A stretch of 64,000 nucleotides of DNA from Candidatus Eiseniibacteriota bacterium (GTDB lineage: Bacteria; Eisenbacteria; RBG-16-71-46), in NCBI GenBank assembly GCA_016215625.1, contig JACRIW010000032.1, positions 1 through 64,000 on the forward strand. Reading direction: 5' to 3'. The stretch's first letter is position 1. Every line of letters begins with the position of its first letter. Positions 12,233 to 38,502 of this stretch are shown piece after piece. The position numbers were made by a program, and so were the translations under genes. A model generated the notes under the pieces. It ran no database searches. It had not been told where the DNA came from and was given only the letters and a program-made list of their open reading frames with translations.

Positions 12233-12304
12233 CAGAGACTGTCGGTGGTGGTGGCGTTGGGTTCCCCGCGAGGGGTTCCGGCGCCACACAGCGTCCGGGA
12301 GTCC

Positions 12305-36505: not shown

Positions 36506-37276
36506 TCAGATCCCCGCGCCGCTCACGAGTTCCATCGCCGTCGCGCGCGCGTCGTCCTCGCCCTCGCGGATCGAACGGAACGCGGCTTCGATGTCCGCCT
36601 GCGAGGCGCCGCGCGGCAGCACGAGTTCGACGGGGCGCTGGCGCAGTTCGGCGATCTCGCGCGCGAGCCGGCCGACCTGGTCGTGCAGCGCCGTGATGGC
36701 GCGCGCCGTCGGATCGGGCAGGCGGGCGTGCTCGAGTTCGTGCCCGGGCTTCTGCTCCTCGGCCGGCCGGTCCTCGAGGACGCGCCCCGGGATCCCGACG
36801 ACCGTGGAGTGCGGCGGACACGACTTGATCACGACCGAGCCCGACCCCACGCGCGAATGCGCGCCGAGCGTGATGTCGCCGAGCACCTTCGCGCCGGACC
36901 CGACCACGACGTGCGACTCGAGCGTCGGGTGGCGCTTCCCCGGCGACAGGCTCGTGCCGCCGAGCGTCACGCCCTGGTAGATGAGGCAGTCGTCCCCCAC
37001 CACGGCGGTCTCGCCGATCACGACGCCCATGCCGTGATCGATGAACACGCGCCGGCCGAGCGTCGCGCCGGGGTGGATCTCGATCCCGGTGAGGAAGCGC
37101 GAGACGTGTGAGACGAGGCGCGGCAGCACGGGCACGCGCATCCGCCACAGCGCGTGCGCGAGGCGGTGGAACCACTGCGCGTGCAGCCCGGGATAGCAGA
37201 GCAGGATCTCCACGACGTTGCGCGCCGCCGGGTCCTTCCGGCGGATCGTGCGCAGGTCCTCGAGCAGCCGTGTCAT
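36506..37276 (-). CDS. cysE: Serine O-acetyltransferase
   Basis: A 256-residue enzyme making O-acetylserine from serine and acetyl-CoA, the first step of cysteine synthesis. The N-terminal helical part is followed by the left-handed hexapeptide-repeat domain with [38 protein letters not shown] and [25 protein letters not shown], including the catalytic His-Asp pair. The C-terminal helical tail (about 190-256) is longer than in the compact EpsC-type enzyme. The start overlaps the cysK stop (ATGA), so both enzymes of the pathway are translationally coupled. Regulation is likely through the cysK leader. Confidence 0.95.
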
Positions 37277-38235
37277 GCGCGGACCGCCTCGGCCGGGACG
37301 TCGTCCGGGAAGTCGAACAGCGGGGTCGAGAGGTAGCGTTCGCCGTGGCTCGCGAGCACGGCGACGATCAGCTTGCCCGCGTACTCGGGACGCGCCGCCA
37401 GCCGCAGCGCCGCGTGCGCGACCGCGCCGGACGAGATGCCGACCATGAGCCCCTCCTCGCGCACGAGCCGCCGTGCCGTCGCGAAGGCGTCGTCGTTGGT
37501 CACGCGCACGATCTCGTCGATCAGGTCGGTGCGCAGGATCGAGGGCACGAAGCCCGCGCCGATGCCCTGGATCTTGTGCGGTCCCGGCGCGCCGCCCGAG
37601 AGCACGGGCGAGTCGTCCGGCTCCACGGCGATCGCGCGGAACGTGCTCTTGCGCGCCTTGAGCGCCTCGGCGACTCCGGTGAGCGTGCCGCCCGTGCCGA
37701 CGCCGGCGACCACCGCGTCCACGCGGCCGTCGGTGTCGTCCCAGATCTCGACCGCCGTGGTTTCGCGGTGCACCTTCGGGTTCGCGGGATTGTCGAACTG
37801 GCCGAGGATCACCGAGCCCGGCGTTTCGGCGTGCAGTTCCTGCGCCCGCGCGATCGCCCCCTTCATGCCCTTCGCCCCTTCGGTGAGCACGAGCTTCGCG
37901 CCGAGCGCGTGCAGCACCTTGCGGCGCTCGATCGACATGGTCTCGGGCATGGTGAGCACGAGCGGGATGCCGCGCGCGGCGGCGACGAACGCGAGCGCGA
38001 TGCCCGTGTTGCCGGAGGTGGGCTCGATGAGCGTGGTCTCGCCGGGCTTCACGCGGCCGGAGGCGATGGCGTCGTCGATCATCGCGCGGCCGATGCGGTC
38101 CTTGACGCTCGACATGGGGTTGAACGACTCGAGCTTGAAGACGACCTCGCCGGCGAGGCCCTGCTGCAGCCGGGGCGCGCGCACGAGCGGGGTCCGGCCG
38201 ATGGTGTCGAGAATGCTGTCGTGGATGCGAGCCAT
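37273..38235 (-). CDS. cysK: Cysteine synthase A (O-acetylserine sulfhydrylase)
   Basis: A 320-residue PLP enzyme making cysteine from O-acetylserine and sulfide. K45 in [11 protein letters not shown] is the Schiff-base lysine; [16 protein letters not shown] contacts substrate and [10 protein letters not shown] binds the cofactor phosphate. GISSGA is the third conserved loop. ATG 38235 follows GAGGAGGGCC. The next gene, cysE, overlaps its stop. Upstream on the same strand lie a terminator hairpin and a short ORF with Cys codons, so cysteine probably regulates this operon by attenuation. Confidence 0.96.
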
Positions 38236-38258: not shown

Positions 38259-38306
38259 GGCGGGAAAAACGAAAACAGCCGCTCTCGGGGATGCGAGAGA
38301 CGGCTG
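38259..38306 (-). terminator. Attenuator terminator in the cysK leader
   Basis: On the minus strand CAGCCG-T-CTCTCG pairs with CGAGAG-CGGCTG (38306-38276, one bulged T) and is followed by TTTTCGTTTTTCCC (38275-38262). It lies upstream of cysK but downstream of a short Cys-rich ORF, the position of an attenuator rather than of a gene end, since the previous gene (MATE exporter) stops 200 bases earlier. Confidence 0.8.
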
Positions 38307-38342
38307 CCTCGGGTCGGATGAAACGGTGTGAGCGCTAACGGG

Positions 38343-38426
38343 TCACGCGCGCGAACCTGCCGACGGGAGACGGTCGTCTCTCCGGCGACAACAACAGCTC
38401 GGGCGAGGGCACGCGTGGCGCTTCAT
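38343..38426 (-). CDS. Putative Cys-codon leader peptide controlling cysK-cysE
   Basis: ATG 38426 opens a 27-codon frame ending in TGA at 38343. Residues 6-13 read CPRPSCCC; codons 11-13 are three consecutive TGT (38396-38388), strikingly unusual for a genome in which TGC should dominate. An in-frame GTG at 38459 would give 38 residues. GATACACT (38444-38437) ends 10 bases before the ATG, compatible with a -10 element and a nearly leaderless message. Directly after the Cys codons, GAGAGACG (38382-38375) can pair with a nearby GTCTCCC and with the 5' arm of the terminator, offering alternative structures. It is too short for routine gene calling. I infer that ribosome stalling at Cys codons relieves termination upstream of cysK. 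Confidence 0.65.
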
Positions 38427-38502
38427 GACGTGCGGGAGTGTATCGAAGAGCGTGGTCACGTGAGTACAGATGTCGTCAATCCCGCCGCGTTTCGCACGGA
38501 TT

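Follow-up and report, generated by a model that had tools for sequence, protein, structure and literature searches.

A candidate cysteine-responsive leader attenuator upstream of cysK–cysE in Candidatus Eiseniibacteriota, with poly-cysteine leaders upstream of cysK in Acidobacteriota

The mapping of amino-acid attenuators is well advanced in Proteobacteria, Firmicutes and Actinobacteria. To our knowledge, they have hardly been mapped outside these phyla. According to a 2010 survey, hardly any of the attenuators predicted in Acidobacteria has been given a function (PMC2965389). For cysteine, the closest known systems are the mycobacterial polycysteine leaders, which have no terminator, and uORFC-8-2 of the Rhodobacterales, which has one. 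Terminator-less cys leader peptides had been predicted for Actinobacteria in 2005 (PMC1262725), and the mycobacterial polycysteine leaders respond to cysteine (Canestrari 2020, as cited in PMC9031893 and PMC13236596). uORFC-8-2 is a predicted Cys attenuator located upstream of cysS (PMC8632094). Here we describe an element in a 64,000-nt stretch of DNA from a Candidatus Eiseniibacteriota bacterium (the whole stretch is hereafter named the window). The element lies upstream of cysK rather than cysS, and thus outside the location described for uORFC-8-2 (cysS, Rhodobacterales); the genes downstream of its leader, cysK and cysE, encode cysteine-making products.

Leader ORF, terminator and switch segment

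A first-pass annotation of the same DNA had placed a short leader ORF with three TGT codons upstream of cysK, and its coordinates held on direct reading of the minus strand (Table 1). The leader contains a further Cys codon (TGC, codon 6), and the Cys run is located mid-ORF, with 14 codons separating it from the stop. The alternative GTG start at 38459, also proposed in that annotation, is indeed in frame with the leader ORF and is not conserved. At least three consecutive Cys residues in a complete short ORF were obtained in 0.04% of dinucleotide shuffles of the 330-nt region upstream of the window cysK. In four neighbouring genes, Cys was encoded by TGC 11 times versus once by TGT, showing that TGT is the rare synonym. 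Searches of NCBIfam and Pfam with the leader peptides gave no match.

In two genomes of the same genus, G001 and G003, the hexamers aligned with the window TACACT were TACGAT and TACGCT respectively, each 9 nt before the ATG. A scan of the leader region for the sigma-70 consensus found no full promoter, and no SD (Shine–Dalgarno) sequence was visible before the leader ATG in the window, G001 or G003. The presence of a −10-like hexamer 9–10 nt before the ATG, together with the lack of an SD sequence, suggests that the leader mRNA may be leaderless or nearly leaderless.

Table 1. Features of the cysK–cysE leader region (window coordinates)
Feature	Position	Strand	Basis or remark
Putative −10-like hexamer TACACT	38437..38442	(-)	Ends 10 nt before leader ATG; inferred
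Leader ORF (uORF)	38343..38426	(-)	27 codons; read directly from minus-strand sequence 38459-38235
Candidate regulatory codons TGT TGT TGT (Cys-Cys-Cys)	38388..38396	(-)	Read directly
Switch segment GAGAGACGACCGTCTC	38367..38382	(-)	Predicted to self-fold, or to form antiterminator with terminator 5' arm
Terminator hairpin	38310-38276	(-)	T-rich tail 38275-38265
Terminator 5' arm (T5) GAGGCAGCCGTCTCTCG	38294..38310	(-)	GAGGCAGCCGTYTC within it conserved in three genomes
Terminator 3' arm CGAGAGCGGCTG and T-rich tail TTTTCGTTTTT	38265..38287	(-)	Folding and terminator scan
cysK SD GAGGAGGG	38248-38241	(-)	
cysK (cysteine synthase A)	37273..38235	(-)	TIGR01139, 436 bits, E 4.5e-131, above cutoff
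cysE (serine O-acetyltransferase)	36506..37276	(-)	TIGR01172, E 4.8e-71, above cutoff; overlaps cysK stop

The hairpin with a T-run reported upstream of cysK was confirmed as a strong intrinsic terminator by folding and shuffling: its predicted stability was −25.2 kcal/mol compared with −13.9 ± 2.6 kcal/mol for shuffled sequences (z −4.4), and none of 200 shuffles was equally stable. Two overlapping terminator-like matches in the region both correspond to this single hairpin. The distance from the T-run to cysK, given previously as 24 bases, is actually about 30 nt. No Rfam family matched the element at gathering or relaxed thresholds. Further strong terminator-like hairpins with T-tails were observed on the minus strand of the window at 12240 and 9362, with no convincing regulatory-codon ORF upstream.

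The switch segment is located directly 3' of the Cys codons and, folded alone, forms a hairpin with a lower stem that includes the Cys-codon region. Its first part, GAGAGACG (38382-38375), is complementary to both 38372-38367 and 38302-38295. The alternative pairing described in the first-pass annotation was therefore correct in that this 8-mer can pair either way, and too short in that the antiterminator is not formed by the 8-mer alone and extends over 38382-38367 paired with 38310-38295.

We modelled a stalled ribosome by masking the RNA up to a point 12 nt beyond the first base of the first TGT, with the transcript ending at the terminator 5' arm. The best fold of the window sequence was then a long antiterminator, in which the whole of GAGAGACGACCGTCTC was paired with GAGGCAGCCGTCTCTC (38310-38295). 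A long antiterminator was likewise formed in G001 and G003, and also, with a different sequence, in G045, which belongs to a different family of the class. Without a ribosome, T5 was paired with upstream RNA to a mean of 0.07, 0.36 and 0.36 in the window, G001 and G003 respectively; when a ribosome occupied the run's first Cys codon, the values were 0.81, 0.76 and 0.72. These constrained folds go in the direction expected from the alternative structures proposed earlier, the stalled ribosome favouring the antiterminator. In G045, pairing of T5 was high both without and with the stalled ribosome (0.69 and 0.73), and in two acidobacterial leaders (L196 and L250) antiterminator pairing did not rise upon stalling. 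At equilibrium, with the ribosome at the leader stop codon, the antiterminator was still favoured in the window (0.73), so that termination at ample cysteine would depend on release of the ribosome, on kinetics or on another footprint. In the full-length transcript the terminator won in every ribosome state; therefore, the switch must be kinetic. On these models, termination in cysteine-replete cells is the weakest step of the proposed mechanism.

Conservation within the class and recurrence in Acidobacteriota

The window's class was represented by 47 species, and the upstream regions of cysK were compared among relatives. Close CysK relatives were those of G001 (89% identity), G003 (81%) and G014 (81%). 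The leader peptides of G001 and G003 are MKRDPRMSPSCCRRRWRDGRLPAAGRCA and MKRTRTEHRTCCCCRGRGDRLLSAGPSRAT respectively, each followed by a stop, and both genomes share with the window ATGAAGCGC, a Cys run from codon 11, the alternative-pairing segment and a terminator starting with GAGGCAGCCGTYTC. Outside the switch segments, the leader sequence is poorly conserved. The local stem is changed on both sides between the genomes, from GAGAC/GTCTC to GAGGC/GCCTC, and the antiterminator pairs are preserved via G-U. The bases just 3' of GCCG in T5 are unpaired in the terminators of G001 and G003, yet conserved. The covariation is thin because close sequences number only three. G045 (64% identity) has a leader starting MYNVHNNFRSLCCCCCRPSREG with a CCCCC run and an unrelated terminator. 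In the alignment of cysK upstream regions that had been suggested as a check, G001 and G003 therefore retain all four features (ORF, Cys run, alternative-pairing segment and terminator), and these recur in G045. As a separate observation, the MATE gene and probably an adjoining peptidase-like gene are absent between msrA and the cysK leader of G003 (locus L003); in the window, msrA is located at about 41.3–42.4 kb.

Complete ORFs with at least three consecutive Cys residues were found in three of the 18 cysK upstream regions from the class, against 0.01 expected. The element was absent upstream of cysK in G014, and no Cys run was present in the cysE-first clusters of the class (L006, L008, L009 and L012) or in L004 and L005. 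A class-wide search for the Cys-run pattern gave, among the matches inspected, no other leader-plus-terminator beyond the known cysK elements.

Among 80 cysK loci from diverse phyla, counted without Cys-rich matches of fewer than three consecutive Cys residues, one from Terriglobia (Acidobacteriota) showed a leader, MILTSSIMPCCCCLCICTCVPRAD followed by a stop, together with a terminator. We then analysed 96 cysK upstream regions of Acidobacteriota, taken from the class of this match and from families within it. A complete ORF with at least three consecutive Cys residues was present in 16 of the 96, with none on the antisense strand and 0.46 expected by shuffling; as the genomes were reached via cysK similarity, these frequencies are not species-wide rates. 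Two architectures were observed upstream of cysK, both within one Acidobacterial family. Some leaders bear terminators, for example L230, L234, L236 and L250, where the Cys run is followed by a peptide end of IV[KESN] and a stop. In others, the run lies against the stop and a convincing terminator is absent, as in L170 (ACCCCCCR before the stop), L172 (VNAPFYACCCCC before the stop), L191, L195 and others.

Cys-rich or poly-Cys leader ORFs within about 330 nt upstream of cysK were noted at L158, L162, L164, L167, L170, L172, L191 and L192, and at further Acidobacteriota loci (L195–L197, L199, L206, L211, L230, L234, L236 and L250). L230, L234, L236 and L250 look like one family of leaders that share a conserved switch, CTGGCG/CGCCAG. 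L172 (−143 to −107) and L211 (−139 to −103) have 12-codon GTG-start ORFs, VNAPFYACCCCC and VSAPFHSLSCCC, in which the Cys run abuts the stop; with a TACAGT-like hexamer just 5' of the ORF, they strongly recall the mycobacterial leaderless leaders. In a Verrucomicrobia MAG (metagenome-assembled genome; L041), a short ORF encoding MKIIERLPFFRVCCFN at about −62 of cysK, with its end near the gene, contains two tandem Cys codons and is possibly a Cys leader.

TGY runs were more frequent on the sense strand of the pooled 114 cysK upstream regions (22, compared with 3 antisense) when counted regardless of ORF status. When runs within complete short ORFs were considered by frame, 20 of 22 were found for the Cys frame, compared with 3 for Val and 5 for Leu. 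This frame test on all TGY runs led us to reject the TGT run as a chance reading of Val or Leu codons. The segment following the Cys codons can pair with T5 in all 13 leader-plus-terminator elements examined, and the distance from the Cys run to T5 is 69–96 nt in every one of them. The complementarity is beyond chance when six lineage representatives are combined (Fisher P about 4e-5); individual P values ranged from 0.001 to 0.42, and those of G001 (0.12) and G003 (0.21) were not significant alone.

Proposed mechanism and alternative explanations

The sequence elements, their conservation, the complementarity and the folding preferences were established directly, and we consider that the element is most probably a cysteine-responsive, ribosome-mediated transcription attenuator of cysK–cysE (a probability of about 0.86). 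Conservation and the constrained folds support the first-pass reading of a ribosome-mediated attenuator; the regulation itself, comprising translation, stalling, the promoter position, read-through and the response to cysteine, is inferred. The transcript would probably start at the ATG or a few bases upstream and be translated into a 27-residue leader peptide. Where Cys-tRNA is plentiful, the ribosome would run through the leader, and the leader hairpin (38396-38361 region) would re-form behind it, allowing the terminator to fold and transcription to stop before cysK. With scarce Cys-tRNA, the ribosome would stall on the TGT run and the lower stem would melt; the freed 38382-38367 segment could then capture the terminator 5' arm ahead of 3'-arm synthesis, and the long antiterminator so formed would let RNA polymerase proceed into cysK–cysE.

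A ribosome stalled on the Cys run might instead alter Rho access or the translation of cysK rather than act through the intrinsic terminator, as already suggested for the mycobacterial leaders. Acidobacterial leaders such as L170, L172, L191 and L195, with the run beside the stop and no convincing terminator, would fit such regulation, as would the terminator-less Cys leaders described in Actinobacteria (PMC1262725). We nevertheless regard it as unlikely for the window, where a strong T-tailed terminator and a complementary antiterminator segment are located between the leader and cysK. Even less probable is that the hairpin is an intergenic terminator of the ordinary kind, serving the upstream MATE gene, with a chance ORF and with cysK having its own constitutive promoter downstream. 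The MATE gene does lie on the same strand, ending 77 nt upstream of the leader ATG, and intergenic terminators are common. However, the upstream gene is MATE in the window and G001 and msrA in G003, which keeps both the leader and the terminator; this difference indicates that the element belongs to cysK, and the terminator as simply that of the upstream gene was rejected by synteny. Moreover, the short distance after the T-run leaves little space for a cysK promoter, and the Cys ORF, which recurs independently, far exceeds chance expectation. Control of the terminator by a metabolite riboswitch or a T-box, with the ORF being incidental, is equally improbable: a structured leader before a terminator is also riboswitch-like, but the Rfam searches gave no match at either threshold, the structure overlaps a coding ORF and the non-switch sequence is poorly conserved.

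Relation to known cysteine leaders

Searches of the open-access literature found no attenuators for Cys, either at cysK or in Acidobacteria. Cysteine leader attenuation is already known; what appears new is its probable occurrence in the window's class and in Acidobacteriota, where none was found described in that literature. The first-pass annotation knew of no such element outside Actinobacteria, which is contradicted both by uORFC-8-2 in Rhodobacterales (PMC8632094) and by the poly-Cys leaders before acidobacterial cysK. It is likely, with less confidence than for the window element itself, that poly-Cys leader attenuators before cysK are recurrent and previously undescribed in two additional groups at the least, the window's class and Acidobacteriota, and that they take terminator/antiterminator and terminator-less forms, often leaderless or nearly so. 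The two architectures in one Acidobacterial family offer a natural series on the gain or loss of attenuator terminators, and a cysteine attenuator provides a concrete regulatory hypothesis for cysteine synthesis in a little-studied GC-rich lineage.

Nine acidobacterial leaders (L158, L162, L164, L167, L196, L230, L234, L236 and L250) are like that of the window in lying upstream of cysK and having a Cys run and a complementary post-Cys segment; their terminator follows 69–92 nt after the run, and the Cys run is their only evident similarity to the window leader. As in classical attenuators (trp, his, leu and ilv; M. tuberculosis ilvB1, PMC13236596), regulatory codons precede an alternative antiterminator and terminator ahead of the biosynthetic operon for the sensed amino acid. 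Unlike these, the window element would sense cysteine, and one self-complementary segment right after the codons serves as both protective hairpin and antiterminator. Like uORFC-8-2, it has a short uORF with tandem Cys codons, Cys codons in the first stem, an intrinsic terminator and a proposed ribosome-mediated attenuation (PMC8632094), whereas uORFC-8-2 controls Cys-tRNA synthetase in Alphaproteobacteria and has, by description, two, mostly UGC, codons at positions 14–15. With the mycobacterial and actinobacterial leaders it shares a poly-Cys peptide before a sulfur or cysteine operon, theirs being often leaderless (PMC9031893, PMC13236596 and PMC1262725). However, the actinobacterial cys leaders have the Cys run near the stop and no conserved terminator hairpin (PMC1262725), compared with the mid-ORF run and terminator/antiterminator of the window. 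Taken together, the window element links the terminator-less mycobacterial leaders with the terminator-type cysS motif.
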